A stretch of DNA of 63,366 nt from Rickettsiales bacterium (GTDB lineage: Bacteria; Pseudomonadota; Alphaproteobacteria; Rs-D84): NCBI GenBank assembly GCA_031260805.1, contig JAISKV010000005.1, positions 1 to 63,366 on the forward strand, read 5' to 3'. The notes below the pieces were generated by a model. The model was not told the DNA's origin. It worked only from the letters and a program-made list of their open reading frames with translations, and did not search any database. Each line of letters starts with the position of its first letter. The stretch's first letter is position 1. This document shows positions 2,122-61,504 of the stretch, piece after piece. A program made the position numbers and the translations under genes.

Positions 2122-5100
2122 ATGATTAAGAAAATTGCCATCTTATTTGGATTTATTGCGTTTTTTAGCGGCGCGAATGCTGCTTCCGACGACTTCCAGA
2201 CTGCCGCGCAACTGCTGTCTGCGGCGCGCGCCGGCGATGTGAAGTATGTGGAAACCCTGGTAAATGCCGGCGCGAATGTGAATTTCGTTGACAACACGGG
2301 GCTGTCCATCGTATGCACCGCGCTGATGAACAATGATATTCGCGCGGCGCAAATCCTGCAAGTTTACGGCGCAGATGCATCCAATTGCGACAAGCAAATC
2401 AAGAATTTCAAGAACCGAATACCGTCCGAGGAGTCCGGGGGACTCTTTTCAGGGCTTTCCACTGCCCAGGGAATGACATTGGCGGTCGGTGGGGCCGCCC
2501 TTGTTGTTGGTGGGCTGTATTTATTGACTGATGTGTTCGGCAACGGCAATCATAACAGCACAAATCCCAGCGGAAACCACCCCGGCGGAAATGGAAACAG
2601 CGGCGGGAACAGCGGCGGCGGCGAATGGTCTTATGGCGCCCTGCCCAGCGGCACGCGCAGCGATTACGATCTGAACTTTTACAGCCCGACCGACGCAACC
2701 AGCATTTATGCCAAGGATTTCGCATTCATGAGCGCGGTTCCGGTTTCATCCGTAAACGGCGCGCCGTACGCGGCCGCACGCCAGAATTATTTGCTGATGA
2801 TGCATGGCTATTCCCCCCTGGCCCGCGGATACCAAGGAATGCGGACTTTCCGGCGCGCCGACAAATCCGCGCTGAATGTTTCCAATGTTGAATTTGATGT
2901 GAACAATGCGGCGGGCGGCGGGCGGCCCGTGGCTGTCGCACTGATAACAGACAATGGTATCAATCCGACGGGCAGCGCGGAAAAAGGCTTTTTAATCGCG
3001 GCGCATTGCAGCACGGGCAGCGAAGATGTCGGATGCACGGCGGCTGCGACCGGCAAAGACGATGTTTTCAGCAAATATTACAACGATAAAATTGAAACGC
3101 GCGGCGATTCCTTGGGCGATTTCACCACCAGCGAGCGCGCCGGATTTGACCTGTCCGGAAACGGCACTGTGTTTAATTTATCTGCGACCGATGATGAATC
3201 AATGCTGGCAAAAATAATCGCCGGATGGTTTGGCGGCGGACGGGCGGACGGCGATTACTATGGATTCATGCCGAACGGCCAGTTGGTTTTGTACCGCACC
3301 GGCGGCGATATGGCGGGCAAGGACTTTAATTCCTGGAAAGCCATGTATCTGGCGGCGCAATTGAATACCAGCGATACGGACCTGTCCGATCTGACCAGCA
3401 TTATTGTAAATGCGTCCCTGCCCGCTGCGATGCGCGCGACAAATGCCAAGACGATAACCGGCTTTCTGTCCGCTTACTATGGCGCTGACGCGGAAACGCG
3501 CAAGAGCGGATTTGTCGCGCTGATTGACTCTATTTACGACGATGTTGCCGATACGGACGATGCAACAACGCCCGGGATTTATGCCAGCAATCTGTTTAAT
3601 TCAATCGGCAACAGCAACTTTCAGATGATAGTCATGCCGACCGGCAGTTTTGTTTATAATGCCGGCGACCCGATATTGGAAGCAACTGTTGAAAACGCCG
3701 CGCCGCTGGCGTATGCAAATCTGAACAAATACTTTATGTCTGTCGTCGCGGTCAGCATGTCCGGCGGCACTGATTCAGCATCTGTCGCCGGTTGGAGCGG
3801 CCCGACCAAGACAAACCAAATCACCCTGTCCAACTGGCGCGATGAAAACGGCACGACCGTCCAGTCTGCAATTGACGCGCTGGGGCCGACGCCGACATCG
3901 CAACAGGTCTTGGACGCGATTGCCGCGGCGACCGCCGACGACACGATGAATGTATCGCGCGCATGCGGCGTGGCCGGACGCGGCGGGAATGGGATTGATC
4001 CTTGGTGCTTTGCGGCGGCGGGCGCAACGCCTGCGGCGGCCGCGGCGGCGGCAGGCGGCGCGGTTGGCGCGATCAAGGGCGCTTTCAATTACATGTCAAT
4101 GAAACAGATTTTCACCCTGCTGGCCGTGACCAGCGAAGGCGGATTTCTGAAAACCGCGTTCGACGGAACCATTTATACCCAGGATACGCTGACCGAGCAT
4201 CTGAAACAAATTTATGCCATGCCGCTGCAATATCAGCAGCGGATTGACAACGGCGAAGACTATCTGTCCGTGTTTGCCGAAGTTTACGGATACGGGCTGA
4301 TAAATCTGGAACGCGCGACAAAACCGGGCAGCCGGGTGTATTATTTTGACGGCGAAAAAATATCCAGCGCGAACGGAAACGCGTACTGGCGCGCGGCATC
4401 AAACACTGCATTTCGCAATTCCGCCGCGTTCGGCGCGCGCAGCGCCAGCATTTCTTCGTCTTTTTACGATATGGTGGAGAGTCTGGACGGCGGCATCGCC
4501 CTGCCCCGCGTTTGGAATTATGATTTCAGCATGGGCGCGGATTCACGGCACGCGCTGTACATGGGGGATGTACTGTCAGAGTTCAGGGTTCAGGGTTCAG
4601 AGTTCAGAAAACATACAGATGGGCTGGATGTCGAGATGTCATTTTCGGAAAAGCAATTCAATGACAATCTGGGCGGATTGGATAACCTGAAATTCGGATG
4701 GAACGGGGAAAATTATTCGCTGACCGCGGATTATCAGCGGCACTTTACAGACGGGCGCGCGCGGTTTGACGGCACTGCGAATCCGATACTCGGACTGGCG
4801 TCAAATGTGATTTCCAGCGGCGCGAATTTTCGCGCGGGCAATTGGTCATTCGGCGGGCGCGCGTTTTCGGGCGCGATAACCGATGAATCCTTGCTGGAAA
4901 ACGATCCTACCGTTTCGGCGCAGTTTAATCCGGCAATAATCGGCCGTATAAATGGCGGCGAGTCCGGACTGGGATACAATTTCGGCAAATTGTCATTCAA
5001 TGCGAATGTCGGGTTTATGAACGAAACAAACACTCTGCTGGGGGCGTATTCGGACGGATTGCTGGCCATGGGCAGCGGGCGGACGACCTATATTGACTCG

Positions 5101-5547
5101 TCAGTGTCGTTCGCACCGGCGGACTGGCTGAAAATCGGCGCGCGCGCAACGATCGCGGCGACAAAAACAGGCGGCACGGGCAACCTTATCCTGGGCCTGA
5201 CGAATGTGAATTCCAATGCATTTTCCGTATCGGCGGATGTCGGTAATTTCAGTTTTGCGGCGGCGCTGCCGCTGGCCGCGACCAGCGGCGCGATGCGGTA
5301 CGCGGACGCCCGGTACGGCGTTGTCGAGCATGATGACGGATCGTATGAATTGACACAGGATTTCGGGGTTGCGGAAATTGGGTTGGCGCCGGACGCGCGC
5401 GAAACGCGGCTGTCTGGCGCGTACCGCGCAAAACTGGGGGCCGGCACAAACGCGGCGTTCGGCTTTATTTACAGAATCAACCCGAATCACACGACTGCGT
5501 TTGGGAACGAATCAATCTTGATGACCAAGATCAAAACAGCATTTTAG
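2122..5547 (+). CDS. Autotransporter-like protein: ankyrin repeats, degenerate subtilase passenger, C-terminal beta-barrel
   Basis: This is a 1141-residue exported protein. Residues 1-20 form a signal peptide ending in ANA. Residues 25-95 contain ankyrin-like repeats, 107-140 a hydrophobic segment and 140-170 a Gly/Asn/Ser linker. The passenger has S8-peptidase landmarks: a VVAVS strand near 540, a GAT-P segment near 632 where active enzymes have GTS-M-A-x-P, and YGYGLINLERAT near 720. The catalytic serine therefore appears lost. The last ~280 residues alternate like an outer-membrane barrel and end in Phe. A GTTCAGA heptad array is translated in frame near residue 820. I infer a surface protein without protease activity. 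Confidence 0.7.
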   Translation: MIKKIAILFGFIAFFSGANAASDDFQTAAQLLSAARAGDVKYVETLVNAGANVNFVDNTGLSIVCTALMNNDIRAAQILQVYGADASNCDKQIKNFKNRIPSEESGGLFSGLSTAQGMTLAVGGAALVVGGLYLLTDVFGNGNHNSTNPSGNHPGGNGNSGGNSGGGEWSYGALPSGTRSDYDLNFYSPTDATSIYAKDFAFMSAVPVSSVNGAPYAAARQNYLLMMHGYSPLARGYQGMRTFRRADKSALNVSNVEFDVNNAAGGGRPVAVALITDNGINPTGSAEKGFLIAAHCSTGSEDVGCTAAATGKDDVFSKYYNDKIETRGDSLGDFTTSERAGFDLSGNGTVFNLSATDDESMLAKIIAGWFGGGRADGDYYGFMPNGQLVLYRTGGDMAGKDFNSWKAMYLAAQLNTSDTDLSDLTSIIVNASLPAAMRATNAKTITGFLSAYYGADAETRKSGFVALIDSIYDDVADTDDATTPGIYASNLFNSIGNSNFQMIVMPTGSFVYNAGDPILEATVENAAPLAYANLNKYFMSVVAVSMSGGTDSASVAGWSGPTKTNQITLSNWRDENGTTVQSAIDALGPTPTSQQVLDAIAAATADDTMNVSRACGVAGRGGNGIDPWCFAAAGATPAAAAAAAGGAVGAIKGAFNYMSMKQIFTLLAVTSEGGFLKTAFDGTIYTQDTLTEHLKQIYAMPLQYQQRIDNGEDYLSVFAEVYGYGLINLERATKPGSRVYYFDGEKISSANGNAYWRAASNTAFRNSAAFGARSASISSSFYDMVESLDGGIALPRVWNYDFSMGADSRHALYMGDVLSEFRVQGSEFRKHTDGLDVEMSFSEKQFNDNLGGLDNLKFGWNGENYSLTADYQRHFTDGRARFDGTANPILGLASNVISSGANFRAGNWSFGGRAFSGAITDESLLENDPTVSAQFNPAIIGRINGGESGLGYNFGKLSFNANVGFMNETNTLLGAYSDGLLAMGSGRTTYIDSSVSFAPADWLKIGARATIAATKTGGTGNLILGLTNVNSNAFSVSADVGNFSFAAALPLAATSGAMRYADARYGVVEHDDGSYELTQDFGVAEIGLAPDARETRLSGAYRAKLGAGTNAAFGFIYRINPNHTTAFGNESILMTKIKTAF
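4575..4608. repeat. Heptad array H1 (GTTCAGR) inside the autotransporter gene
   Basis: Four exact 7-bp units, two GTTCAGG then two GTTCAGA, follow a partial unit and are translated as SEFRVQGSEFRK. The same heptad occurs between genes at 39692, 42957 and 52294. Confidence 0.9.
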
Positions 5548-5548
5548 A

Positions 5549-5639
5549 AGGTTTTAGATTTGAGGTTTAAGGTTTAAGGTTTAAGGTAATCATGCCGACA
5601 ACATCAAACCTTAAACCTCAAACCTTAAACCTAAAACCT
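5549..5639. repeat. Inverted heptad element H2 (GGTTTAA)
   Basis: The left arm repeats GGTTTAA three times. The right arm carries the complement (TTAAACC units), separated by an 18-base centre. It starts a few bases after the autotransporter stop codon. Transcribed, it would form a long hairpin followed by a T-rich stretch, so it may end transcription. Confidence 0.9.
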
Positions 5640-5708
5640 ATTTTTTCCTTTACTATTCCCCAGTTATCCGGTAAAATTCCCGTACAATTTATCAAAGGAT
5701 TATTTTTT

Positions 5709-9260: not shown

Positions 9261-10529
9261 ATGAGAATACAAAACTTGTGCGTGAAACTGGAACGAAATG
9301 ATTCCGGTCTGGATACCACGCACGGGACAAAAATCGCATTGCGCGGCGGATACATCCATCAAACAACGGCCGGGGTTTACACCCTGTCGCCGCTGGGCCT
9401 GCGCGTGCAGCGCAAGATAGAGCAGATCGTCCGCACGGAAATGGACGCGGTGGACGGTCAGGAAATCCGCATGCCGGTCGTCAGCGGCGCGGATCTGTGG
9501 CGCGAATCCGGCCGCTATGACAACATGGATAACTTGCAGAAATTCAAGGGGCGCAACGGGGTTGATTATGTTCTGAATCCCACGCATGAAGAAGTCGTTG
9601 TGGATTACACGCGCGCCGTTTTGGAAACTTACCGCCAGCTGCCGTTCATGGTTTATCAGATTCAGACCAAGTACCGCGATGAACTGCGCACGCGCGCGGG
9701 CCTTATCCGCACGCGCGAATTCACGATGAAGGACGGGTATTCTTTCCATGAAACGCAGGGCGATTTGGAAAACTATTACCATCGCGTGTTCGGCGCGTAC
9801 GAACGGATTTTCGCACGCGTTGGACTGCGCGGCGTGTTCGCGACGGAATCCGACAACGGCGACATGGGCGGAAATTTTTCCCAAGAATTCCAATGGCTGT
9901 CCCCGATTGGCGAAGACACGGTTTACTTTTGCGACGCATGCAAATACAGCGCGAACAAGGAAGTCGCCGAAAATGGAATCTGCCCGAAATGCGGCGCGCA
10001 AATGCGGGCCGAGCGCGGCGTGGAAGTTGGAAACATCTTTCAATTGTCCACAAAGTATTCCGTCGCGATGGGATTGAAATTCACGACCGCGGACGGCGCG
10101 CAGCAGCATCCGATAATGGGATGCTATGGCATTGGCATCGGGCGGACGCTGGCATGTTTGATAGAGCAGGACGCGGATGAAAACGGGCCGAAATGGAACA
10201 TGGCGGTTGCGCCTTTTGCGGTCGCGGTTATCGGAATTCCTGATAAATCCGGCGACTCTTTGCGTCTGGCGAACCGCGTTTACGATGAACTGATTGCGGC
10301 TGGAATTGATGTTATCCTGGACGATCGCGATGCGCGCGCGGGGGAAAAGTTTGCGGACGCGGATTTAATCGCCGCGCCTGTGCAATTGATTGTTTCTGAA
10401 AAGAACACCGCGAATGGAATCGTGGAAGTAAAATACCGCACGCCGATTGATACAACCGGCCTGCCCGACTCTGTCAAGATTGACGATGCGGCGGCAGGGG
10501 TCAAAAAAATAGTTGAATTATTGCAATAA
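9261..10529 (+). CDS. proS: Prolyl-tRNA synthetase, short form
   Basis: This class II synthetase of 422 residues charges tRNA-Pro. Motif 2 appears in KYRDELRTRAGLIRTREF and motif 3 in GCYGIGIGRTLA; the C-terminal anticodon-binding domain follows. The large editing (INS) domain of many bacterial ProRS is absent. In its place stands a small four-cysteine segment, CDAC...CPKC, that could bind zinc. Loss of the editing domain is known among Alphaproteobacteria. Confidence 0.93.
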   Translation: MRIQNLCVKLERNDSGLDTTHGTKIALRGGYIHQTTAGVYTLSPLGLRVQRKIEQIVRTEMDAVDGQEIRMPVVSGADLWRESGRYDNMDNLQKFKGRNGVDYVLNPTHEEVVVDYTRAVLETYRQLPFMVYQIQTKYRDELRTRAGLIRTREFTMKDGYSFHETQGDLENYYHRVFGAYERIFARVGLRGVFATESDNGDMGGNFSQEFQWLSPIGEDTVYFCDACKYSANKEVAENGICPKCGAQMRAERGVEVGNIFQLSTKYSVAMGLKFTTADGAQQHPIMGCYGIGIGRTLACLIEQDADENGPKWNMAVAPFAVAVIGIPDKSGDSLRLANRVYDELIAAGIDVILDDRDARAGEKFADADLIAAPVQLIVSEKNTANGIVEVKYRTPIDTTGLPDSVKIDDAAAGVKKIVELLQ

Positions 10530-10532
10530 TCA

Positions 10533-10665
10533 AACCACTACCCCGCCGCTGCGCGGCCCCCCTTCGCCAGCGAAGGGGAATTGTCCCGACTTCGTTTCAA
10601 GGTGCAGGCCATCAAAATCCCCTTCGCTGGCGAAGGGGTGCTGCGCAGCGGCGGGGTAGTGGTAT
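10533..10665. repeat. Palindromic element family A, copy 2
   Basis: This is a complete copy. The outer arms ACCACTACCCC and GGGGTAGTGGT enclose GC hairpins, the CCCCTTCGC/GCGAAGGGG hairpins and a centre with GGGACAA, GAAACGAAGT (complement) and GGCCATCAAA. It sits between the convergent proS and M48 genes and could terminate both. Confidence 0.92.
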
Positions 10666-11960
10666 TATTTATCCTTTATTATTTTCAATAAATCGTTCGC
10701 TTTCAGATATTCCGGGGAATTTTTTTGCAATTTTCCCATTGCGGATTTCGCGTATTTTTTTGTCTCGCCCGGCTTTTTAATCAAGTTGTAATATTCCGCC
10801 ATCGCCCAATCGGATTCGCCTTCGTTCCCGCGCAATTTTTCCGCGCGCGACAAGACAAAGTACGCCAGCGGGCCGGGATCCGAAATTATCGCCAATTTCG
10901 CAAGCCCCGCCGCGCTGTCCGCGTCCCCTGGCCGGCGCCGCTCGGTCAAGACCAATGCCTGCGCGGTTTGGATTTGCGGCGCGTTCGGGCGCAGTTTCAA
11001 TGCCGCACCGTACGCAGCGATACTGTCGTCGTAATGCCCGTATTTATATTCCAAATCACCCATTAATTCATAAAAGAACGGGTTGCCGGGCCCCCGCCGG
11101 ATTAGCGTTTGCGCGCCGGTTTTTGCCAATGCCAGATTGCCGCGCGTCATGTTGAAAATCGCGCGCGCGTAAATCGCCGCATCGGATTTGTCCGCGGCCG
11201 GGTAAGTCGCGGCAACTGCATCCCGGGTCCCCAGATACCCGTCCAGTTTCGCGCGGACCAGCGCGTAAGATTTTTCATCCGGCGCCGCTGTTTTATCCTG
11301 TTTCATGCTTTTTAATTTCTCTTTTATATTCTGCAATCTTTCCGCGGTCAGCGGGTGATTCGTATTGTTCGGATTTATTTTATCTTCGGATTGCATGTCC
11401 TGCATCAGCCGCATAACTTCCAGAAATCCCGCCGTCGGCACCCCCGCACGCGCCAGCAAATCAAGCCCCGCCGCGTCCGCCTGGCGTTCTTCGTCGCGCG
11501 AAAAGGCCAGCAGCGATTGCTGGGCCATGCCGCCCGCCCCCGCCAGCAATCCGACGCCCGCCTGGGGATTCAGCGCGATTAATCCCGCGCCCAAGGCCTG
11601 CATCACCAGCATCCGTTTCATTTCCGCGGCCATGCGGTCGGACATCTGCACCATGTGGCCGCCGGTCATGTGGCCCAGTTCGTGCGCGACAACCGCCTGA
11701 ACCGCATTTGGATTTTTAATTTTCTGAATCAGCCCGGTGTAAATGTAAATGTCTTCGCCGCCCATGACAAATGCGTTGAATTGGTTGTCGCCGATTAAAT
11801 GAATGCGCAGGCGGCCGTCAGGAATTCCAGCGGCGCGCCCGATTGGCGCGACCATTTCGTATAAAACGGATTCTATTTCCGTGTCGCGGATCTCGGTCGC
11901 GGCGAACGCCGCTGGAAAAATAAAAATTAAAAGATAAAAGATAAAAATTAATTTTTTCAT
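10665..11960 (-). CDS. Periplasmic M48 metalloprotease with TPR repeats (BepA-like)
   Basis: The 431-residue protein has a signal peptide ending near AAFAA (residue 21), the zinc motif HELGH at 93-97 with the third ligand in RDEERQAD near 170, and TPR-like helices in the C-terminal half. That arrangement matches BepA/YfgC, which monitors outer-membrane protein assembly. The start is the ATG of MKKLIFIF; an upstream extension would translate a family B repeat. The signal peptide core is encoded by AAAAGAT heptads. Confidence 0.85.
   Translation of the reverse strand: MKKLIFIFYLLIFIFPAAFAATEIRDTEIESVLYEMVAPIGRAAGIPDGRLRIHLIGDNQFNAFVMGGEDIYIYTGLIQKIKNPNAVQAVVAHELGHMTGGHMVQMSDRMAAEMKRMLVMQALGAGLIALNPQAGVGLLAGAGGMAQQSLLAFSRDEERQADAAGLDLLARAGVPTAGFLEVMRLMQDMQSEDKINPNNTNHPLTAERLQNIKEKLKSMKQDKTAAPDEKSYALVRAKLDGYLGTRDAVAATYPAADKSDAAIYARAIFNMTRGNLALAKTGAQTLIRRGPGNPFFYELMGDLEYKYGHYDDSIAAYGAALKLRPNAPQIQTAQALVLTERRRPGDADSAAGLAKLAIISDPGPLAYFVLSRAEKLRGNEGESDWAMAEYYNLIKKPGETKKYAKSAMGKLQKNSPEYLKANDLLKIIKDK
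11922..11949. repeat. Heptad array H5 (AAAAGAT/ATCTTTT) in a signal peptide
   Basis: Four units (AAAAATT, AAAAGAT, AAAAGAT, AAAAATT) encode on the minus strand the hydrophobic core IFIFYLLIFI of the M48 protease signal peptide. Four other signal peptides in the window are encoded by the same heptad. Confidence 0.85.
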
Positions 11961-12015: not shown

Positions 12016-12182
12016 CCAGTTCCCCTCCCATGGAGGGGTGCCGCGCCAGCGGCGGGGTGGTTTACCAAAGTTTTATTTAATAAATACTAAAATTCATTCC
12101 ATCCTTAAATCATACTTCATAAATCATAAATCCTGTAAACCACCCCGGCCTGCGGCCACCCCTCCAAGGGAGGGGAACTGCC
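12016..12182. repeat. Palindromic element family B, copy 1, with H4 heptads in its centre
   Basis: The arms contain CCCCTCCCATGGAGGGG-type hairpins, a GC-rich hairpin (CCGGCCTGCGG) and the outer GTAAACCACCCC. The centre holds heptads CTTAAAT, CATACTT, CATAAAT, CATAAAT at 12104-12131, the H4 family also found inside rimM and ruvX. It lies between map and the M48 gene. Confidence 0.9.
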
Positions 12183-26362: not shown

Positions 26363-26434
26363 AAGTGCAGGTGTAGGTGAAGGTGTAAGTGTAGGCCATT
26401 AACCTTCATCTCCACCTTCACCTACACTTTCACT
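26363..26434. repeat. Inverted short-unit element H6 (AGGTGT/ACCTTC)
   Basis: Six-base-spaced units (AGGTGT, AGGTGA, AGGTGT) run into a GGCCATTAACC centre and complementary TTCACC/TACACC units. The stop codon of the upstream lipoprotein lies inside it. A sister element with the GGCCATCACC centre lies at 56700-56776. Confidence 0.85.
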
Positions 26435-26867
26435 GCCCCAGACCAGCCGGCGAAAACCGCCCGACATTATTCATCAATTCTTGCAGCGCGTTCAATTCAA
26501 CCGCTGCCGGGATTGGCGTTTCATCGCCGTCCAGACCAATGCCGGCAAAGTCCCCATCGTGCAGAACCCGCGTTTTTGTAATGCGTCCCGCCCCGTCTGC
26601 CCATGCGAACAGCGCGGTTTTATTGGAAAACGAATGCGGAAACGGCCCGTTATAGTTTTCATCCGCGCCGTAATACATCAATATTTTTTCGCGCCCGTAC
26701 AGGGTCTGACCCTGGGGGCTGCCGAATTTCTCTTCCAGTCCCGCGACAGTCTTCACGCCGGCCGCCTGTGCGTCAATATCATCCGGGAACACATACCCGC
26801 GGTGCTTGGTCTGGCACGCCGCCAGACAAATGAAAGATAACAGATAAAAGATTGCAGTTTTTCTCAT
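26430..26867 (-). CDS. BamE/SmpA-like outer-membrane lipoprotein
   Basis: The 145-residue protein has lipobox LAAC (cysteine at 18) and a GYVFPDDID...GVKTVAGLEEKFGSPQG layout similar to alphaproteobacterial BamE-like lipoproteins of the Bam complex. Its signal peptide core is written in ATCTTTT heptads. It overlaps the stop codon of the giant upstream gene by ATGA. The BamE assignment is tentative because the segment after residue 60 is unusual. Confidence 0.6.
   Translation of the reverse strand: MRKTAIFYLLSFICLAACQTKHRGYVFPDDIDAQAAGVKTVAGLEEKFGSPQGQTLYGREKILMYYGADENYNGPFPHSFSNKTALFAWADGAGRITKTRVLHDGDFAGIGLDGDETPIPAAVELNALQELMNNVGRFSPAGLGQ
26826..26856. repeat. Heptad array H5 in the BamE-like signal peptide
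   Basis: On the minus strand ATCTTTT, ATCTGTT, ATCTTTC encode IFYLLSFI, the same peptide core as in the other H5-containing signal peptides. Confidence 0.75.
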
Positions 26868-34927: not shown

Positions 34928-36138
<1,211 letters not shown>

Positions 36139-39526: not shown

Positions 39527-39688
39527 TACCCCGTCTTGCGCTTACGCGCAATCCACCCCTTCGCTGGCGAAGGGGAATTTGTTGGCCTGCGCCACACAAT
39601 AAAACAACATTTATTGAAACGAGGTTGTGATAATCCCCCTTCACTTGGCGAAGGGGTGGCGCGCGTAGCGCGACGGGGGTAGTGGTAA
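39527..39688. repeat. Palindromic element family A, copy 3
   Basis: The outer TACCCCG and CGGGGGTAGTGGTA, inner GCGC hairpins and CCCCTTCGC/GCGAAGGGG hairpins surround a centre with TTGTTGGCCTGCG and GAAACGAGGTTGTGA. It is more diverged than the other copies. Confidence 0.88.
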
Positions 39689-39691
39689 AAA

Positions 39692-39722
39692 CTGAACTCT
39701 AAACTCTGCACCCTGAACTCTA
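39692..39722. repeat. Heptad array H1 (CTGAACT)
   Basis: The units CTGAACT, CTAAACT, CTGCACC, CTGAACT are the complement of the GTTCAGA array found inside the autotransporter gene. Confidence 0.85.
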
Positions 39723-42956: not shown

Positions 42957-42998
42957 CTATAAACTCTGAACCACGAACCCTGGACTCTAAACTCTGAC
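42957..42998. repeat. Heptad array H1, six units
   Basis: CTATAAA, CTCTGAA, CCACGAA, CCCTGGA, CTCTAAA, CTCTGAC run up to the stop codon of the minus-strand gene that follows. Confidence 0.85.
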
Positions 42999-43549
42999 TA
43001 GTGCTTCATTTTCATCGTTCTGGTCGGGGCGACCGCTGTGCGGCGGACGCTGGGCGCACGGCTGTTTTCACCGCCACCGGTTGAACTGGCGCACAGCCAT
43101 GAATCATTCTGCATAATCGCCACCTGATTCGGGGCGCATTCCGGCATCAGGCGATCCCAGACAAAGCAATCGCCGGACATTTTGGATGCATACGCGTTAT
43201 TATCCGCCCCGCCCCTGGTGTACGCCCCGTATTCAGGATTAAACACGCCGCGCGATTGCCCCGCGCACCACTTGCGATCGCCAAAGCATGAGATGCATTT
43301 TCCATTGGCATCGCACAATTCAGACGGCGCCGCCGTATCGCGGTACCCGGTTATAACGCGGTTTTCCAATCCCATGTATTTCCCGTTTTCCAAATCGCGG
43401 CACCATAACCTTTCGCATTCATATGTTTCAATCCCGTCCAGATTCTTCGCGCTTTTCTTCAAGACATGCCCGTCGCCGCAATTAAACGCGGCGTCCGCCG
43501 CGGGCGATATAAGAGACAAAAGACAAAAGATGTAAAATAATTTCTTCAC
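42998..43549 (-). CDS. Secreted cysteine-rich protein of unknown function
   Basis: The 183-residue protein has a signal peptide ending ADAA near residue 21 and a mature part with about a dozen cysteines (CGDG, CERLWC, CDANGKCISCFG, WCAG, ECAP), suggesting a disulphide-bonded extracytoplasmic domain. The C-terminus is basic and rich in Arg and Thr. It is divergent from another secreted protein gene with similarly spaced cysteines. No family is recognised. Confidence 0.7.
   Translation of the reverse strand: MKKLFYIFCLLSLISPAADAAFNCGDGHVLKKSAKNLDGIETYECERLWCRDLENGKYMGLENRVITGYRDTAAPSELCDANGKCISCFGDRKWCAGQSRGVFNPEYGAYTRGGADNNAYASKMSGDCFVWDRLMPECAPNQVAIMQNDSWLCASSTGGGENSRAPSVRRTAVAPTRTMKMKH
43511..43537. 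repeat. Heptad array H5 in the cysteine-rich protein signal peptide
   Basis: On the minus strand ATCTTTT, GTCTTTT, GTCTCTT encode IFCLLSLI. Confidence 0.75.
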
Positions 43550-43572
43550 AGCATGATTATATCATTTTTCTC

Positions 43573-43602
43573 TGGCAAGTTTCCATGGAAAAATAATATA
43601 AT
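43573..43602 (+). promoter_or_regulatory. Promoter of a secreted-protein gene, probably leaderless
   Basis: TGGCAA and TATAAT are 18 bases apart. The chosen ATG (43610) lies eight bases after TATAAT, and no ribosome site precedes it. Confidence 0.5.
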
Positions 43603-43609
43603 GCCATTA

Positions 43610-44503
43610 ATGAGAATTTTTATCATTTGTCTTTTATCTTTTATATCGCTCAATGCGGGCGCGGCCGCATTGAATAACTATGTGTCGCCGACGCAGTACA
43701 ATGTGATGCAGCCGTACTTGAACAATTCCATGCGGACCGCCATGAAGCCGGGCGGCGATACGGACTTTATGCAGCCGTACGGGGCGGGATTTATCCGAAC
43801 CGCGCACATCGGCGGCGCGGCTGATTCGCGCAAAGTCGTCGCGCGCAGCGCGGCGCCCGCTCAAACAGGCCAAACGACGGGAACAGCGCGCGCGGCAACC
43901 CAGCGGCGCGTGGTCGCGCGAAGCGGCCGCGGCGATAATTCTTGGTTTGCATCCGCAAATAATGGAATTCTGGCGGCGGTTGACGACAGCACCGCGATAA
44001 ACCCGAATATCACGGCCAGCCAGTGTTTAAGCGATTATACCGCATGCATGGAGGGTTATTGCAAACGGGACGGCACCCTGTACAACAGATGCTTTTGCAG
44101 CGCGCGGCTGACGGAGATTGACGGCGCGTACCAGCCGGCAATCCAGAATTTATTGGGTCAAATCAACGACTTGCGAAACGGCGGCGGCATAACGCGCGAA
44201 GAAGCCGAGCAAACTTGGGCCGAAATCTATGGCGAATACTATGCCGATTCCAATCACATCGGGGATGTATATCAGACACTGGATATCGCATGGCCGGATG
44301 CCGATACCAGAACGCGCGGGCAGAATGCGTTCGCGACCGGGCATTCCTGGTGCAGCCAGAATTTATCAAACTGCTTTTCCAGCGCGAATCTGATGCGCGA
44401 CGCGTACCGTTCCAGAATCGCCAGCGACTGCGCGTCGTATGAAAAGTATCTGGGGAATGTAAAAACCGCGGCGGAACGGATCATCGCGGATTACAGCGAT
44501 TAA
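43610..44503 (+). CDS. Secreted protein of unknown function
   Basis: The 297-residue protein has a signal peptide MRIFIICLLSFISLNAGAAA whose core is written in heptads, a low-complexity Ala/Arg-rich stretch near residue 85-110 and a C-terminal domain with cysteine pairs (CLSDYTACMEGYC, CFCSAR, CSQNLSNCF). An ATG nine bases upstream is possible. No family is recognised. It is divergently arranged with the cysteine-rich gene at 42998-43549. Confidence 0.65.
   Translation: MRIFIICLLSFISLNAGAAALNNYVSPTQYNVMQPYLNNSMRTAMKPGGDTDFMQPYGAGFIRTAHIGGAADSRKVVARSAAPAQTGQTTGTARAATQRRVVARSGRGDNSWFASANNGILAAVDDSTAINPNITASQCLSDYTACMEGYCKRDGTLYNRCFCSARLTEIDGAYQPAIQNLLGQINDLRNGGGITREEAEQTWAEIYGEYYADSNHIGDVYQTLDIAWPDADTRTRGQNAFATGHSWCSQNLSNCFSSANLMRDAYRSRIASDCASYEKYLGNVKTAAERIIADYSD
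43613..43647. repeat. Heptad array H5 in a signal peptide
   Basis: AATTTTT, ATCATTT, GTCTTTT, ATCTTTT, ATATCGC encode the core IFIICLLSFIS. Confidence 0.75.
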
Positions 44504-46982: not shown

Positions 46983-48644
46983 TCACATCTCGGCCGGGAC
47001 GCGCAGACCCATCAAATCCAATCCTGTCGTCAATGCTTGCGCTATCTTTTCCACTATCCACAGCCGCCCTGCCCGCGTTTCCGCGTCAACATCGCTGCGC
47101 AGAATTGGGAAGTTATGGTAATACCCGTTCGCCATCTGCGCCAGATCATAGACGAAATTTGCCAGCAAAGACGGATCGCGTCGCGCAAAGGCCCCATTCA
47201 CGACATTTTCCAGATCATTGATTTTCAGCAACAGCGTCCGTTCGTCCGCATGCAGTCGCGTTGGCGCGGCCGCCGCAGATTCCGCGCGGGCCAGCACTGA
47301 ATTCAACCGCACTGCGGCATATAAAATATATGGTCCGGTGCGTCCGTCAAACGAACTTATCTGCTTTGGATCAAACACATAATCGCTGCGCACATCGTGC
47401 GACAAATCATTGAACTTCAAGGCCGCCAGCGCGATCATTTCCATGGTTTCGTCCGGCAGTGTTTTTTCTGATTCCCTGGCGCGCGCCAGCACCGCTTCGT
47501 TCGCAATGTTTATCATGTCGCGCAGCCCGGCCGCATTGCCGTCGCGCGTTTTCAACGGCGTTCCGTCAGTGCCGTTTATGGTGCCGTATCCGACATGCTC
47601 CATCTGGCTTTCGGGATAAATTCCGGACATTCCGCACACGCGGAACAACTGCGCAAAGTGCAGATTCTGCCGCGCGTCCGTAAAGAAAATCATGCGGTCC
47701 GGATTATCGGTTATTTTCTTGCAGTACGCCGCCGCGATATCCGTTGAATCATAGGTATCCGCCCCGCGAGAATCCGTCCACATCATCGGCGGCATCGGCG
47801 CGTTGTCGTCTTCGCGCCGCACAGGGATAACCATCGCCCCTTCGCTGGGCGTTATCATATTTTTACCGCGCAGTATTTCTTCAACCGCGTCCAGATATCC
47901 CGCCGCGTTCCGCTCCCCCAGATTATTATCAAAGGGCAGCATGTTCAGCCGCCGCACGACATCATTCATGTCATCCAATGCAATAGGCAGGAATTTGTCG
48001 TACACCGCCCGGAACTCTGGATTTCCATTCTGAAACTCGTTCTTGATAAAATGCGCGCGCGCCATGAATTCCGCATCTTCCTTGGCCAGAGAATTCGCGG
48101 CCGGATAAATTTTGTTCAATTCATCGGCGGACAGTTTTTCAATGTCAATGCCATGCTTTTCAACCCAGGCGATTATCAGCGCCATCGGGCGGCCCCAGTC
48201 GCCCATGTGATTCCAAGAAATCATCCGATGCCCCAGAAAACGGCCCAAGCGGTTGAATGTGTCGCCGACAATGCTGGTGCGCAGATGCCCGATGTGCATG
48301 CTCTTTGCGACATTATACGAACCATAATCCAGGTCAATGGTTTGAGGTTTGTGGTTTAAGGTTTGCGGTTCTTCGGCAACGCTTTTTATTATAAAATCGT
48401 CTTTCATTTTTATATTTATAAAGCCCGGACCCGCGATTGATACCGAATCAACACCGTCAATTTCCGCGATTTTCTGCATGATTTCAGCCGCCATTTCGCG
48501 CGGATTTCTGCCGGCTGCTTTTGCGGCAACCATCGCGGCATTTGTCGCAAAGTCCCCGAATTCCGGATTTTTTGGTATTTCCAAACCGGCATTTTCGCCG
48601 ATTGCTGATTTAATTTTATCTGAAATATATTTATAAATGTTCAT
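46983..48644 (-). CDS. argS: Arginyl-tRNA synthetase
   Basis: The 553-residue class I enzyme has the HIGH motif in MHIGHLRTS, an anticodon-binding domain with HDVRSDYVF and a C-terminal ANFVYDLAQMANGYYHNFP. The KMSKS loop is represented by LKTRDGNAAGL, as common in ArgRS. Just before the catalytic domain an H2 heptad array adds PQTLNHKPQTI. The ATG behind a purine-rich GGAGAG was chosen. Confidence 0.94.
   Translation of the reverse strand: MNIYKYISDKIKSAIGENAGLEIPKNPEFGDFATNAAMVAAKAAGRNPREMAAEIMQKIAEIDGVDSVSIAGPGFINIKMKDDFIIKSVAEEPQTLNHKPQTIDLDYGSYNVAKSMHIGHLRTSIVGDTFNRLGRFLGHRMISWNHMGDWGRPMALIIAWVEKHGIDIEKLSADELNKIYPAANSLAKEDAEFMARAHFIKNEFQNGNPEFRAVYDKFLPIALDDMNDVVRRLNMLPFDNNLGERNAAGYLDAVEEILRGKNMITPSEGAMVIPVRREDDNAPMPPMMWTDSRGADTYDSTDIAAAYCKKITDNPDRMIFFTDARQNLHFAQLFRVCGMSGIYPESQMEHVGYGTINGTDGTPLKTRDGNAAGLRDMINIANEAVLARARESEKTLPDETMEMIALAALKFNDLSHDVRSDYVFDPKQISSFDGRTGPYILYAAVRLNSVLARAESAAAAPTRLHADERTLLLKINDLENVVNGAFARRDPSLLANFVYDLAQMANGYYHNFPILRSDVDAETRAGRLWIVEKIAQALTTGLDLMGLRVPAEM
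48337..48371. repeat. Heptad array H2 inside argS
   Basis: ATGGTTT, GAGGTTT, GTGGTTT, AAGGTTT, GCGGTTC are translated on the minus strand as EPQTLNHKPQTI between the N-terminal and catalytic domains. Confidence 0.9.
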
Positions 48645-52289: not shown

Positions 52290-52293
52290 TGGT

Positions 52294-52372
52294 TTTCAGA
52301 GTTCAGAGTACAGAGTTCAATTTTTTACAAATCACACAGTGATTTGTCATTCCGGCCTCGGGCCGGAATAGG
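52294..52372. repeat. H1 heptads, an ACAAATCAC hairpin and a short family C palindrome
   Basis: GTTCAGA-type units cover 52294-52320. ACAAATCAC/GTGATTTGT forms a hairpin at 52327-52347. CATTCCGGCC/GGCCGGAAT follows at 52348-52371. No gene is present here. Confidence 0.7.
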
Positions 52373-52662: not shown

Positions 52663-53121
52663 TTAACTTCTCTTCATCATCGCGATGGCGTTTTCCAAAA
52701 TTATCGCCGCCGCGACTGCATCCAGTTCCCCTCTCTTGGAGGGGTGGCGCGCGCATGCGCGCCGGGGTGGTTTACCGGATTTATTTTTTATTATTTCTTC
52801 TGCTTCCGCGCTGGTAAAATTCTCTTCCATAAACGCAATCGGCAAAGCAATCTGTCCGGACAAATCCGCGGCGAATTTCCGCACGGCCGCCGTCGTTTCC
52901 GAATCGGTCCCATCGCCGTGCAGTGGCAGACCGACAACGATTCCGACCGGCCGCTCGGATTTAATAAAATTTATGATTTCTGATTGATGATTTATTATTT
53001 TTTTTGGAAACGCGAATTCCTGGCGTTCGTCGCTGACGGCCAGTCCGATGCGGCGCACGCCCCAATCAATCCCAATAATGAGTCCGGCGCGCGGAAAATC
53101 CTTGAAATTATCCAAAATCAT
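52663..53121 (-). CDS. ruvX: Holliday junction resolvase-like protein RuvX/YqgF
   Basis: The 152-residue protein begins with the RNase H-like motif IIGIDWGVRRIGLAVSD and has GIVVGLPLHGDG and FTSAEAE. It is expected to process the 16S rRNA 3' end. Two repeats are translated within it: an H4 heptad array giving INHQSEIINF near residue 43, and a family B arm giving PPRRACARHPSKRGE before the conserved LDAVAAAIILE end. Confidence 0.88.
   Translation of the reverse strand: MILDNFKDFPRAGLIIGIDWGVRRIGLAVSDERQEFAFPKKIINHQSEIINFIKSERPVGIVVGLPLHGDGTDSETTAAVRKFAADLSGQIALPIAFMEENFTSAEAEEIIKNKSGKPPRRACARHPSKRGELDAVAAAIILENAIAMMKRS
52720..52783. repeat. Palindromic family B arm inside ruvX
   Basis: AGTTCCCCTCTCTTGGAGGG through GGGGTGGTTTACC is a complete family B arm, in frame near the ruvX 3' end. 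Confidence 0.9.
52968..52995. repeat. Heptad array H4 inside ruvX
   Basis: AATTTAT, GATTTCT, GATTGAT, GATTTAT are read on the minus strand as IINHQSEIINF, nearly the same peptide as in rimM. Confidence 0.9.
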
Positions 53122-54933: not shown

Positions 54934-56412
54934 ATGTACACGATTAAAGGGAAGACCGGCGAATGGGAATTGGTTATCGCGCTGGAAACGCATATAGAAG
55001 TCTTGTCAAACAGCAAACTGTTCAGCGGGGCGAGCGCGGACTATAACCCGACCGTTTCCGCGAACACCCAGGTTTCAATGGTTGACGCGGCGATGCCGGG
55101 CATGCTGCCCGTGCTTAACCGCGAATGCGTGGACCAGGCGATTCGTTTCGGACTGGGCATCAACGCCGACATCACGCGCCGCAGCATTTTCACGCGGAAA
55201 CAGTACTTTTATCCCGATCTGCCCCAGGGATATCAGATAACCCAGCCCGCCGATCGGCCGCCTATTGTCGGCCGCGGCTGGGTTGAAATAGCCGGCGACG
55301 ACGGCAATCCAAAAAAAATATTTATAGAACGCGCGCACCTGGAACAGGATGCCGGGAAAAATATTCATGACATGAATCCGTCGCGGTCTTTTGTTGATTT
55401 GAATCGCGCAGGGGTCTGCCTGCTGGAAATCGTGAACTTTATTGACATTCACAACCGGGAAGAAAATTCTTTTATATCGTCCCCGGATGAAGCCGAGCGG
55501 TATCTGCGTACAATTCGCGAAATCGCGCGCGCAACCGGCGTGTCCAAGGCGAATATGGAAGAAGGCAGCATGCGCGCCGATGTCAATGTATCCGTGCGGC
55601 TGGTCGGCGAAAAGGCGTTTCGCACGCGCACCGAAACGAAAAACATGGTGTCGTTCAAGTTCATAAAAACCGCGATTGAATTTGAGGCGCGCCGCCAGAT
55701 TGAAATTTATGAATCCGGCGGTCAAGTCAGCCAAGACACGATGCATTACAACCAGAACACCGGGAAAACCAGCGTCATGCGGTCCAAGGCGGACGCGCTG
55801 GATTACCGGCACTTTCCGGATCCGGATTTGATGCCGCTGATTGTGAGCGATGAACAAATTGAAAAAATCCGCAGCGCGATGCCTGAATTGCCGGCGGCAA
55901 AGCGCACGCGGTATGTCGGCGACTTTGGCATAACGGAATACGATGCGGCGCGTCTGACGGAAAGCGTGGAGATTTCGGACTATTTCGAGTCGGCGATTGG
56001 CGGCAAGCCGGAAAATGCAAAGTTGATTGCAAATTGGGTGCTGGGCGATCTGGCCGCGCATCCTGAATACGCGATGCCGGCCGCATACTTGGCCGAATTG
56101 GTTGAAATGATTTCCGCGAACGAGATCAACGGCAAGCAGGCCAAGGATTTGTTTATAAAAATGCTGGAAGGCGAATCCGGAAATCCGCGCTCAATTGCGG
56201 ACAAATTCGGGATGAAGCAAATTACGGATACAGGCGCGATTGAATCCGCGGTGAATGCGGTTATCGCGGCAAATCCGGCCCAGGTTGAACAATACCGCAG
56301 CGGCAAGACGGGAATACTCGGGTTTCTGGTCGGCGCGGTTATGAAAGCAACCGGCGGCAAAGCAAATCCGGCAGTCGTAAATCAAATAATGACAGATAAA
56401 TTAAAGGTTTAA
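54934..56412 (+). CDS. gatB: Asp/Glu-tRNA amidotransferase subunit B
   Basis: The 492-residue subunit binds and phosphorylates misacylated Glu-tRNA-Gln or Asp-tRNA-Asn. It has the GatB signatures ALETHIEVLSNSKLFSG, PQGYQITQP and YRHFPDPDLMPL, and the C-terminal YqeY-like tail. The stop codon TAA lies inside an H2 heptad element. Confidence 0.95.
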   Translation: MYTIKGKTGEWELVIALETHIEVLSNSKLFSGASADYNPTVSANTQVSMVDAAMPGMLPVLNRECVDQAIRFGLGINADITRRSIFTRKQYFYPDLPQGYQITQPADRPPIVGRGWVEIAGDDGNPKKIFIERAHLEQDAGKNIHDMNPSRSFVDLNRAGVCLLEIVNFIDIHNREENSFISSPDEAERYLRTIREIARATGVSKANMEEGSMRADVNVSVRLVGEKAFRTRTETKNMVSFKFIKTAIEFEARRQIEIYESGGQVSQDTMHYNQNTGKTSVMRSKADALDYRHFPDPDLMPLIVSDEQIEKIRSAMPELPAAKRTRYVGDFGITEYDAARLTESVEISDYFESAIGGKPENAKLIANWVLGDLAAHPEYAMPAAYLAELVEMISANEINGKQAKDLFIKMLEGESGNPRSIADKFGMKQITDTGAIESAVNAVIAANPAQVEQYRSGKTGILGFLVGAVMKATGGKANPAVVNQIMTDKLKV

Positions 56413-56443
56413 GGTCGCAATTTGCGACCTCAAACCTTAAACC
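56404..56443. repeat. Inverted heptad element H2 at the gatB stop
   Basis: AAGGTTTAAGGTCGCAA pairs with TTGCGACCTCAAACCTT. It supplies the gatB TAA stop and is a hairpin immediately after the gene. Confidence 0.9.
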
Positions 56444-56453
56444 TAATAAAAGC

Positions 56454-56717
56454 ATGTTCGGGATATCGGGTGGCGAATTTTTAGTGATTTTATTCATCGC
56501 GATTGCGGTGATTCCTGCGCGCAGTTGGCCGGCTGTGTTCAAGTTCGCCGCCAAATGCGTGCGCGCCGTCCGTCAGATAATCTGGAAAATCAACGACGCG
56601 ACCGAATCGGTCAAAGATAGAATTGAACGAGAAATGCCGATTGACGAACTGTCCAAGCAAACTTTTGACGATGTAAGCGCCGCATTCCGGACGAAAAAAG
56701 TGAAAGGGAAAAGGTGA
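56454..56717 (+). CDS. tatB: TatA/TatB-family twin-arginine translocase protein
   Basis: The 87-residue protein has the short N-terminal membrane helix GGEFLVILFIAIAVIPARSWP followed by an amphipathic helix, as in TatB. The hinge GP is replaced by P-A-R. No tatC lies in the window. The C-terminal KKVKGKR and the stop are written in repeat sequence shared with the end of fba. Confidence 0.75.
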   Translation: MFGISGGEFLVILFIAIAVIPARSWPAVFKFAAKCVRAVRQIIWKINDATESVKDRIEREMPIDELSKQTFDDVSAAFRTKKVKGKR

Positions 56718-56776
56718 AGGTGTAGGTGCAGGTGCAGGCCATCACCTTCACTTACACCTTCACCTTCACCTTCACT
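56700..56776. repeat. Inverted short-unit element H6 shared by convergent gene ends
   Basis: AGGTGA, AGGTGT, AGGTGC, AGGTGC units, a GGCCATCACC centre and ACCTTC units. The stop codons of tatB (plus) and fba (minus) both lie within it. Confidence 0.9.
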
Positions 56777-58993: not shown

Positions 58994-59434
58994 ATGTCGG
59001 ACGACGCCAGAATCTTGGTTGGTAAAATCGTGGCGGCCCAAGGGCTGCGCGGGGATCTGCGCGTCCAGACATTCACGCGGAATCCGGCGGATTTCCAGGG
59101 ACTGCATCTGATAAATCATCAATCGCAAATCATAAATCATAAATTTGTCCGCAGCGATGGCAGTGTTGCTATTATAAAAATTGACGGTGTTGACGACCGG
59201 ACCGCTGCGGAAAAACTGCGCGGGACAGAATTATTTGTAAACCGCGGCGATCTGCCGGAATTGCCCGAAGGGGAATTTTATCACGCGGATCTGCTGGGCA
59301 TGCGCGTGGGGGACCGGCGGGTTGCAGGCGTGCATGACTTTGGCGCGGGCGATATTCTGGAATTGGATGACGGGACAATGGTGTCTTTTGCAGGCGCGGT
59401 TGTTGACACGGAAAAAAGGGAAATTTTAATATGA
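58994..59434 (+). CDS. rimM: Ribosome maturation factor RimM
   Basis: The 146-residue protein helps mature the 30S head. The N-terminal ILVGKIVAAQGLRGDLRVQ and the PRC-barrel part FYHADLLGM are typical. Near residue 40 a heptad array adds LINHQSQIINHKF. The start is the ATG of MSDDARIL. It overlaps the following small gene by ATGA. Confidence 0.88.
   Translation: MSDDARILVGKIVAAQGLRGDLRVQTFTRNPADFQGLHLINHQSQIINHKFVRSDGSVAIIKIDGVDDRTAAEKLRGTELFVNRGDLPELPEGEFYHADLLGMRVGDRRVAGVHDFGAGDILELDDGTMVSFAGAVVDTEKREILI
59111..59145. repeat. Heptad array H4 inside rimM
   Basis: Five exact units, ATAAATC, ATCAATC, GCAAATC, ATAAATC, ATAAATT, are translated as INHQSQIINHKF. The units that differ remove the in-frame TAA a perfect array would create. 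Confidence 0.92.
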
Positions 59435-59655: not shown

Positions 59656-60401
59656 TGCATTTTGACATCATCACTCTTTTTCCGGAAATGTTTCCAGGCA
59701 CCTTGGGCGGCGGGGTCGTCGGCCGCGCGTTGGAAAATAAAATCTGGTCGTTTGACGCGATAAATCCGCGCGGCTTTACGGACGGCAATTACCGCCGGGT
59801 GGACGACACCCAGTTCGGCGGCGGCGCGGGGCAAGTGATGATGGCGGAACCAATCGCCCGAACGATTGACGAAATAAAAAAGAATCGTCATGCCGGGCTT
59901 GACCCGGCATCCATGGATTCTGGGTCGCGCGCTGACGCGCCTGTCCGGAATGACGAAAGAAAAATCATATACTTTTCGCCGCGTGGCCGGGTCTGGAACC
60001 AGAAACTGGCGCGGGAATACGCCGGCAAAGATTATACGCTTATCTGCGGGCGGTACGAAGGGCTGGATCAGCGCGTGATTGACGAATATGAAATAGAAGA
60101 AATTTCAATCGGCGATTATATTTTGTCCGGCGGTGAAATCGCCGCCCAGGTTTTTATTGACAGTCTGGTCCGGCTGTGCGATAATGTGCTGCACTCGGCA
60201 GAATCAGCACAGAGCGAAAGTTTTGAAATCGGGGGGTTGGAATGGCCGCTGTATACCCGCCCGTCGTCATGGCGCGGACGCAATGTCCCAGAAGTCCTGA
60301 TGTCCGGCAACCACGCGGCGATAGAGCGTTGGCGGAAAGAACAATCGGATGCCATAACAAATCAACGGCGTCCGGATTTGATAAAAAAAGTGGAAAGTTG
60401 A
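59655..60401 (+). CDS. trmD: tRNA (guanine-N1)-methyltransferase
   Basis: The 248-residue enzyme methylates G37 of tRNAs. The SPOUT knot is visible as ICGRYEGLDQRVIDEY and ISIGDYILSGGE. Between IDEIKK and KIIYFSPRGR a family C palindrome adds about 24 residues (HAGLDPASMDSGSRADAP). The ATG overlaps the previous stop codon (TGATG). The stop lies in an H3 repeat. Confidence 0.93.
   Translation: MHFDIITLFPEMFPGTLGGGVVGRALENKIWSFDAINPRGFTDGNYRRVDDTQFGGGAGQVMMAEPIARTIDEIKKNRHAGLDPASMDSGSRADAPVRNDERKIIYFSPRGRVWNQKLAREYAGKDYTLICGRYEGLDQRVIDEYEIEEISIGDYILSGGEIAAQVFIDSLVRLCDNVLHSAESAQSESFEIGGLEWPLYTRPSSWRGRNVPEVLMSGNHAAIERWRKEQSDAITNQRRPDLIKKVES
59885..59956. repeat. Family C palindrome in frame inside trmD
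   Basis: TCGTCATGCCGGGC...GACCCGGCAT and GCGCGCTGACGCGC lead to CCGGAATGACGA, the same signature as the intergenic copies. Confidence 0.93.
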
Positions 60402-60506
60402 AAGTGAAAAGTGAAAATGCGGCTGGTCGCGCAAGCGCGACATGGTTTTCTAATGATAGCGCAGCGAACGCATTATTTTTACTTTTCATTTTCAACTTTT
60501 CACTTT
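60390..60506. repeat. Composite element H3 between trmD and rplS
   Basis: GAAAGTGAAAAGTGAAAA and TTTTCAACTTTTCAC arms surround GTCGCGC/GCGCGAC. The trmD stop codon lies in the left arm. Confidence 0.88.
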
Positions 60507-60532
60507 GATTTGCGACAAAGGAGCAAATAATT

Positions 60533-60928: not shown

Positions 60929-60929
60929 A

Positions 60930-60957: not shown

Positions 60958-60972
60958 AGGTTTCATCCCGCC

Positions 60973-61058
60973 CCCCATCGTCATTGCGGGCTACGACCCG
61001 CAATCCATTTAACCTGGATTCCGGGTTTCGCTTCGCTCCCCCGGAATGACGATAGGGG
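60973..61058. repeat. REP-like palindrome, family C
   Basis: CCCATCGTCATTGCGGG...CCCGCAATCC and GGATTCCGGG...CCCCGGAATGACGATAGGGG. Confidence 0.88.
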
Positions 61059-61159
61059 ATGGTTTAGAGTGTGGGGGTGGGGTCATAGAGCCAGAGCACA
61101 GCGAACGGCGATGCATGAGATTTTTTGACTTTGTTGCACATTAATTGTAAAATGCCGGC

Positions 61160-61504
61160 ATGCATAAAATTTTTATCTTTTCATTTTTATCTTTTATCTT
61201 TTGCGCCGGGGCACACGCGCTTGTTGACAAAAACACCGCATCGCTGCGCGTTATGAACAAGGCCGCCGGCCGCGCCCACACAATTGAAATCCCTGTTGGC
61301 GAAACCCGGAACGACGATAAACTGGCGATAACAGTGCGGTCTTGCAAACGGACGGATCCGTACGCGGCGGAAAACGATTTTGCCTTTGTTGAAATAACCA
61401 AGTCCGATAAACTGATTTTCAGCAATTGGATGAACAAGAACGATTTGGGGGCAAATCCGGTCCAGGATGCCGATTGGGACATCTGGCTGACGGCTTGCAA
61501 ATAA
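61160..61504 (+). CDS. Secreted DUF2155-family protein
   Basis: The 114-residue protein has a signal peptide with core IFIFSFLSFIF (encoded by heptads, cleavage near AHA) and a mature part matching DUF2155: VMNKAAGRAHTIEIPVG, IFSNWMNKN and DWDIWLTAC at the end. DUF2155 is typical of Alphaproteobacteria; its function is not known to me. Confidence 0.75.
   Translation: MHKIFIFSFLSFIFCAGAHALVDKNTASLRVMNKAAGRAHTIEIPVGETRNDDKLAITVRSCKRTDPYAAENDFAFVEITKSDKLIFSNWMNKNDLGANPVQDADWDIWLTACK
61168..61202. repeat. Heptad array H5 in the DUF2155 signal peptide
   Basis: AATTTTT, ATCTTTT, CATTTTT, ATCTTTT, ATCTTTT encode IFIFSFLSFIF. Confidence 0.85.

Follow-up and report, generated by a model that had tools for sequence, protein, structure and literature searches.

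The question raised by this locus is why units of seven base pairs, unrelated to one another in sequence, should recur in short arrays throughout one stretch of bacterial DNA. The stretch (hereafter the window) comprises 63,366 nt of a Rickettsiales bacterium and is contig 11 of a 15-contig, 729-kb assembly that is 93.5% complete; the GyrB of this genome is 76–80% identical to those of gut Alphaproteobacteria including Candidatus Enterousia, and we place the source as a reduced alphaproteobacterium near Ca. Enterousia. The small genome had pointed to the candidate phyla radiation, a source rejected in view of these GyrB matches to alphaproteobacterial and Enterousia metagenome-assembled genomes. 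The initial annotation listed five heptamers, GTTCAGA (H1), GGTTTAA (H2), AAAGTGA (H3), ATAAATC (H4) and ATCTTTT (H5), together with a hexamer, AGGTGT (H6), and proposed that a single mechanism, such as template switching or a terminal-transferase-like process, creates them all. Our analysis indicates instead that the arrays very probably belong to a very small mobile element, as its terminal inverted arms, as copies that lack its gene and as remnants; the element carries the gene for a 23S rRNA intervening-sequence protein (IVP; PF05635/TIGR02436, a four-helix bundle). Sequence evidence establishes the architecture of this element, the specificity of the arms for IVP genes, the presence or absence of elements at orthologous sites, the existence of gene-less derivatives and the way in which array density depends on IVP number.

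The periodicity itself is not in doubt. All six units were recovered where the initial annotation had placed them; it had described them as direct arrays, inverted arms of hairpins, arrays within other repeats and arrays within genes. A scan of the window for at least three units at ≥84% identity yields 23 arrays of the six named units, against 0, 0, 0, 0 and 1 in five local order-3 Markov shuffles, and a test that presupposes no unit finds 9 period-7 arrays where 0.1 are expected. The same preference extends to the genome at large: in a 448-kb sample made up of the window and 20 further stretches there are 75 period-7 arrays for 0.4 expected, whereas the other periods from 4 to 13 give 1–9 and period 14, the harmonic of 7, gives 37. 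The strong arrays are mostly intergenic (49 of 73), though intergenic DNA, as delimited by gene calls from our own script, makes up 17% of the sample.

About a dozen unit families cover nearly all arrays in the genome sample, with TAATTCT, TAATAAC, ATTATTC, GTTTAGA, TACCAAC, ATCACGA and others joining those named above. The GGTTTAA arrays often form the two arms of a hairpin around a conserved loop (GGTTGTCGGCATNATTACC), and AAAAGTG arrays flank a common GC-rich core. This genome has 91 occurrences of the GGTTTAA pattern, which is almost absent from 59 of the other genomes searched; two relatives carry dense arrays of other units. An identical 26-mer is shared by locus L085 and this genome, and units recur in other genera.

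What probably connects these families is a gene. One inverted GAGTTTA pair encloses a PF05635 gene, and all five PF05635 genes of this genome (on contigs 1, 5, 6, 9 and 13) lie between inverted short-period arrays, each with a unit of its own: GAGTCCC-like, AGGTGT (H6, with a period of 6), GGTTTAA (H2), GAGTTTA and TAATAAC. The five proteins score above the cut-off and match TIGR02436, 'four helix bundle protein'. Since these copies are located between protein genes and outside 23S rRNA, the elements are relatives of rRNA intervening sequences (IVSs) rather than rRNA IVSs themselves, which sit in a 23S rRNA gene and are cut out by RNase III.

The arrangement is general. We gathered PF05635 genes from 60 relatives and 399 further Pseudomonadota genomes, which provided 117 loci with both flanks. 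Inverted arms (score ≥13) are present at 91 of these, but at only 2 of 117 when partners are exchanged and in 3 of 226 windows shifted by 750 bp. The period of the arms is 7 nt at 73 of the 91 loci, 8 nt at 7 and 6 nt at 3, and is unclear at 8. In the Pseudomonadota loci the median element is 443 bp with an arm of 29 nt, and the arms begin 12 nt upstream of the start codon and 8 nt downstream of the stop codon. The upstream arm is poor in C on the coding strand (8.8% versus 25%), with G exceeding C in 76 of 83 cases. A full element of ~440 bp comprises an array of about four 7-nt units, one IVP open reading frame (ORF) of ~120 amino acids and the inverted array. A stop codon is present on one strand of most units, which raised the idea that the heptamers provide stops in all frames; it was dropped because AT-rich heptamers often hold stops.

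Plasmid-borne relatives of IVP occur mostly in Nostoc, Calothrix, Anabaena and other cyanobacteria, in which heptamer repeats have long been on record as a group feature. A comparison with phage records gave no match. Inverted arms are found at all 16 plasmid loci fetched, which are mainly cyanobacterial (14 with period 7 and 2 with period 8), and several of the plasmid elements lie within operons: between cas6 and cas4, cas10 and cmr3, nrdB and nrdA, and among type IV secretion genes. The insertions between CRISPR genes (L302, L309, L311) involve cas6 and cas4 in Pseudanabaena and Anabaena plasmids and cas10 and cmr3 in Picosynechococcus. A 23S rRNA location is seen at two loci only, in genome G277 and in Azospirillum; the G277 insert begins at about position 1218 of the Rfam model, apparently the helix-45 site of the Coxiella IVS (PMC4990558). 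Two identical IVP copies in G277 (L241/L251) represent two rRNA operons and so provide no independent junction.

Away from IVP genes, stretches of seven IVP-less genomes contain 0 arrays in 170 kb and those of eight IVP-bearing genomes 129 in 576 kb; the density of such arrays correlates with IVP number with a Spearman rho of 0.94 over these 15 related genomes. A small check at the gyrB locus points the same way: three of four genomes that have a true heptamer array there possess IVP genes, compared with 4 of 19 genomes in which the locus has none. Of 102 arrays of this genome, at least 50 share a 12-mer with IVP arms of the same genome or its family, compared with 18 after unit shuffling, and relatives have H1 and H4 units in their IVP arms (L214, L217).

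Presence and absence at orthologous sites, seen in other genomes for IVP elements and for one gene-less palindrome, are consistent with mobility. A Trichormus plasmid element of ~423 bp is absent from six plasmid records that are 98–99% identical on both sides. The filled site carries a 5-bp GTAAT direct repeat and reads aaaaaGTAAT-element-GTAATtaac, compared with aaaaaGTAATtaac in the empty site (one of the six records read). In a Nostoc plasmid this site is filled by a truncated copy, and two further plasmids (L325/L326) contain gene-less copies that share the arms of the Trichormus element. Three further empty-site pairs and a Picosynechococcus pair are too diverged to give exact ends. At one site in one alphaproteobacterial genus, 30 genomes divide into 11 with the element, one with a gene-less heptamer palindrome, one with another short insert and 17 empty; the arms at this site have from 2 to 13 units.

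The window can now be interpreted. No PF05635 gene lies within it, the five of the genome being elsewhere, and what it contains is limited to palindromes without a gene and to solo arrays, from several element families, with the gene-carrying H2 and H6 copies at other places in the genome. Its sites, with inverted repeats numbered I, are as follows.

4575-4608 (+): H1 (GTTCAGA) solo array, inside the gene at 2122-5547, which has no Pfam family match.
5548-5640 (+): H2 gene-less palindrome; arm 5548-5587, conserved loop, inverted arm 5600-5640 (I6-I8; array match 5600-5632, - strand).
11916-11946 (-): H5 (AAAAGAT) array, intergenic.
12104-12132 (+): H4 (ATAAATC) array within a larger GC-rich palindromic repeat, 12017-12180 (I16, I17).
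26364-26434 (+): H6 (AGGTGT) gene-less palindrome (I11); arrays 26365-26387 (+) and 26410-26427 (-).
26828-26852 (-): H5 array, from the unit scan.
32323-32356 (-): H3 (AAAAGTG) solo array, in frame in the pyruvate:ferredoxin oxidoreductase (PFOR) gene, 31121-33439 (-).
39688-39708 (-) and 42975-42997 (-): H1 arrays, from the unit scan.
43488-43665 (+): inverted AGACAAA/ATCTTTT (H5-type) pair in a longer GC-rich palindrome (I4); H5 matches 43509-43531 (-) and 43617-43644 (+).
48339-48364 (+): H2 (GGTTTAA) array, inside a predicted gene.
52292-52319 (+): H1 (GTTCAGA) solo array, intergenic.
52965-52985 (-): H4 array, from the unit scan.
56401-56446 (+): GGTTTAA palindrome, short and degenerate, where the gatB gene ends (I23); H2 match 56426-56446 (-).
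56711-56775 (+): second H6 (AGGTGT) gene-less palindrome (I13, I18); arrays 56711-56728 (+) and 56753-56771 (-).
59111-59144 (+): H4 (ATAAATC) solo array in a rimM-like gene, 58994-59434.
60386-60506 (+): H3 (AAAAGTG) gene-less palindrome (I9); arrays 60386-60417 (+) and 60481-60506 (-).
61171-61202 (+): H5 (ATCTTTT) array, intergenic.

The most plausible reading takes these arrays for remnants of IVP elements and for copies without the gene. The H2 and H6 palindromes have their ends in common with gene-bearing elements of the same genome: GGTTTAA, the unit at 5548-5640, is also the arm unit of the IVP gene G000:C1:1647-1949, and AGGTGT, the unit at 26364-26434, is that of G000:C9:21371-21688. 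The palindromes are predicted to fold strongly as RNA, with -41.8 kcal/mol (z -9.15) for 5548-5640, -39.1 kcal/mol (z -7.3) for 26364-26434, -38 kcal/mol (z -7.5) for 56711-56775 and -58.3 kcal/mol (z -9.0) for 60386-60506. The last of these has a GC-rich core (GCGGCTGGTCGCGC...), and similar cores are present at genome loci L010, L024 and L025. The solo array in the PFOR gene falls in a variable loop between two ferredoxin-type cysteine motifs and adds no length relative to PDB entry 6cin.

Further arrays are translated in frame in conserved genes, in variable loops and a signal peptide (L022 9945-11225 and L012 15890-17002, as well as window 31121-33439). By gene names read from sequence, that in L022 is an mnmE-like gene holding three different arrays and that in L012 a dacF-like gene whose signal peptide is built of TTTTCAC units. 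An ATTATTC-family stretch of ~150 bp is present as two near-identical copies 11 kb apart on contig 12 (L011 12495-12660 and L012 4000-4150), possibly a recent duplication of a gene-less element. The window also contains members of a second dispersed repeat family, GC-rich nested palindromes (CAGTTCCCCTCC...GGAGGGGTG... CGGGGTGGTTTACAG) at 1-127, 10528-10669, 12017-12180, 36001-36138 and 61804-61946, which are complementary up to 100% over 48 nt and elsewhere in the genome often abut heptamer arrays. Runs of G near contig ends (21 G at window 63239-63259 and ~100 G at L028 18764-18869, the end of contig 3) are probably sequencing or assembly artefacts.

A second question is what sets the period. 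Period labels cluster overall on the IVP tree, and the period-6 elements, which come from three genera, fall into a single IVP clade (support 97/92), a result matched in 0 of 500 shuffles. In one relative, G007 (L109-L114), period-8 arrays are in excess (13) beside period 7 (26) over 102 kb of stretches that were partly picked for GATTTAA hits. Unit similarity increases with IVP protein identity; this shows that arms and gene travel together but is not proof of binding, because co-inheritance within one element gives the same pattern. Only one closely related structure has been solved, that of XCC0516, with five chains in the entry (2gsc) and described as a homopentamer built from four-helix bundles (PMC4990558). 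The simplest inference is that an IVP oligomer reads the array and that the spacing of its subunits would fix the period. In such a scheme the oligomer, a pentamer in the one solved relative, would recognize the arms as DNA or as an RNA hairpin, its geometry would dictate whether the period is 6, 7 or 8 nt, the letters of each unit would drift along with its IVP lineage, and the protein would mobilize gene-less copies in trans. Movement could come about by an activity of IVP itself, by an RNA route with a borrowed reverse transcriptase (RT) or by host repair acting on the hairpin, none of which is strongly favored. A bolder form of the proposal, which we regard as possible but doubtful, would have PF05635 proteins mobilize a bacterial mobile element of a class of its own, with no recognizable nuclease or transposase. 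They would act as pentamers with one unit per subunit, so that ring geometry fixes the period at 7 nt, or sometimes at 6 or 8, as the letters change with the protein, and most bacterial heptameric repeats would be their footprints.

Several observations weigh against the element as the source of the arrays. Arms are missing at threshold from 26 of the 117 IVP genes, and arms have 2–13 units rather than a fixed five. As the 15 genomes are related, the density correlation is not free of shared ancestry and its P value serves as a guide only. A possible exact target duplication is seen at one pair of sites, and no movement has been observed. No gene-bearing copy with H3, H5 or TAATTCT arms is present in this genome or the sample; loss of the gene, or its location in the missing part of the genome, may be the reason. 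Solo arrays stand inside genes without partner arms and, with no extra length in PFOR, this means that not all arrays are simple insertions. Imprecise loss may have left such arrays behind, or they may be a side effect of the activity that moves the element.

One alternative is a version of the element hypothesis that specifies the chemistry and comes near to the template switching of the initial annotation. IVP elements would be retroelements that borrow an RT in trans, and reverse transcription would create the arrays or extend them. The model is Avd, a distant relative of IVP, which acts together with the RT in diversity-generating retroelements; IVPs match bAvd models weakly (E 1.9e-6 and 1.4e-7). 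This genome does encode one RT, on contig 12 and thus on none of the contigs that carry its IVP genes. It is the only RT found in the genome (L009 145-1197 (-), G000:C12; 350 amino acids, motif LPIGNLCSQ ... YCDD) and scores below the cut-off of every NCBIfam RT model. Near-complete IVP-bearing relatives (e.g. G010 and G024) show no RT, however, and several IVP-less relatives have one, and we consider a borrowed RT unlikely.

Neutral polymerase slippage would have arrays build up in unconstrained sequence, with 7 bp as a favored length, a hypothesis for bacterial heptamer repeats quoted in PMC4692102, and IVP elements would merely carry arrays too. The highly variable copy number at a single site, the position of arrays in places of low constraint such as variable loops and a signal peptide, and the difference between Coxiella strains with two and three copies (PMC4990558) are all as expected from slippage. 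An independent origin at each locus does not fit the dozen or so unit families that cover nearly all arrays and are common to many loci and to relatives, and slippage would predict neither inverted pairs with common cores, nor the absence of arrays from 170 kb of IVP-less relatives, nor periods of 6 or 8 that follow IVP lineage. As a source of the arrays it is quite improbable, and it does not account for inverted pairs around one gene family; given arms of 2 to 13 units at one site in one genus, it probably alters the copy number of existing arrays.

The palindromes might also be hairpins of the host, selected at gene ends for transcription termination or regulation, with heptamers as handy stems; in favor of this, palindromes are often 3' of stop codons. 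The one at 5548-5640 starts immediately behind the 2122-5547 stop codon, precedes a T run and has the fold z-score near -9 given above. Ordinary GC-rich hairpin terminators stand beside arrays in the same genome, however, solo arrays lie inside genes, and the palindromes are tied to one gene family in several phyla yet missing from close relatives. We judge this explanation very improbable, although secondary use as terminators is compatible with an origin from IVP elements.

Template switching or terminal-transferase-like synthesis of new arrays anywhere would explain a fixed period with unrelated units, but it is scarcely credible given units that recur at many loci and in other genera (as in the 26-mer shared with L085), arms that flank one gene family (91 of 117 versus 2 of 117 and 3 of 226) and the lack of arrays in 170 kb of IVP-less genomes. 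The idea of a common cause behind unrelated units is retained. The units are not created anew at random, because about a dozen families cover nearly all arrays, arrays have cores and loops in common, the same units flank PF05635 genes and array density tracks gene number.

Much of what surrounds the IVP element is known already: the excess of heptamers in bacteria, the repeats of STRR type and those of Xanthomonas, Nostoc and Beggiatoa, and the 23S IVS with its S23p ORF. In the openly licensed PMC papers searched, heptamers are connected with IVP only for the Coxiella 23S insertion; none was found to link heptamer arrays in general with PF05635 or to report such elements outside rRNA with gene-less derivatives, though an earlier report may exist. 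The nearest relatives are the 23S rRNA IVSs with an S23p/IVP ORF in Coxiella and others, which resemble the elements described here in protein family, size (428–444 nt), terminal inverted repeats and ORF-adjacent heptamers (PMC4990558). In Coxiella, tandem heptamers lie upstream of S23p in a strain-dependent copy number, and IVSs were earlier proposed to be mobile-element relics (PMC4990558). The present elements differ in lying mostly outside rRNA, in intergenic DNA and operons, in having heptamer arrays as both arms across the family and in gene-less derivatives that far outnumber the gene-bearing copies.

The resemblance to repetitive extragenic palindromic sequences (REP/REPIN) and miniature inverted-repeat transposable elements (MITE) is in the short, dispersed intergenic palindromes that would be moved in trans by a protein encoded elsewhere. 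Here, however, the arms are tandem arrays and the partner gene is PF05635; a RAYT-type Y1 transposase (PF01797) had no match in this genome, as represented by the 93.5% complete assembly. With diversity-generating retroelements the likeness is to Avd, a four-helix-bundle accessory protein, with whose bAvd models IVPs score weakly. The IVP loci examined by reading showed no linked RT, template or variable repeat, templates and variable repeats not having been searched for systematically.

An orphan protein family, so far familiar mostly from insertions in 23S rRNA and from a single pentameric crystal structure, becomes by this reading a candidate mobility or array-binding protein. Its elements would be among the smallest gene-carrying mobile elements; they insert into conserved operons (cas, nrd, type IV secretion), and the traces they leave include hairpins and in-frame repeats. 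The excess of heptamers in bacteria has previously been put down to polymerase slippage or regulation. The tie to a named gene family gives the repeats a cause and predicts their occurrence in IVP-bearing genomes, and ends and gene-less leftovers of an IVP element would explain why heptamer repeats are common in many bacteria.

The final comparison is with those repeats themselves: the STRR of Calothrix and Nostoc, GGGAATC of Xanthomonas, with 70–75 inverted heptamer pairs in each of two genomes, and GGGGA(C/T)T of Nostoc (PMC4692102), as well as TAACTGA of Beggiatoaceae (PMC4679880). Like the arrays described here, they have a period of 7, are short and mostly intergenic, include many inverted pairs and vary in copy number. 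Those reports name no gene and find no link to mobile elements, and they describe one unit per genome, compared with a dozen here. Nostoc and Calothrix, both known carriers of heptamer repeats, hold IVP elements with heptamer arms.

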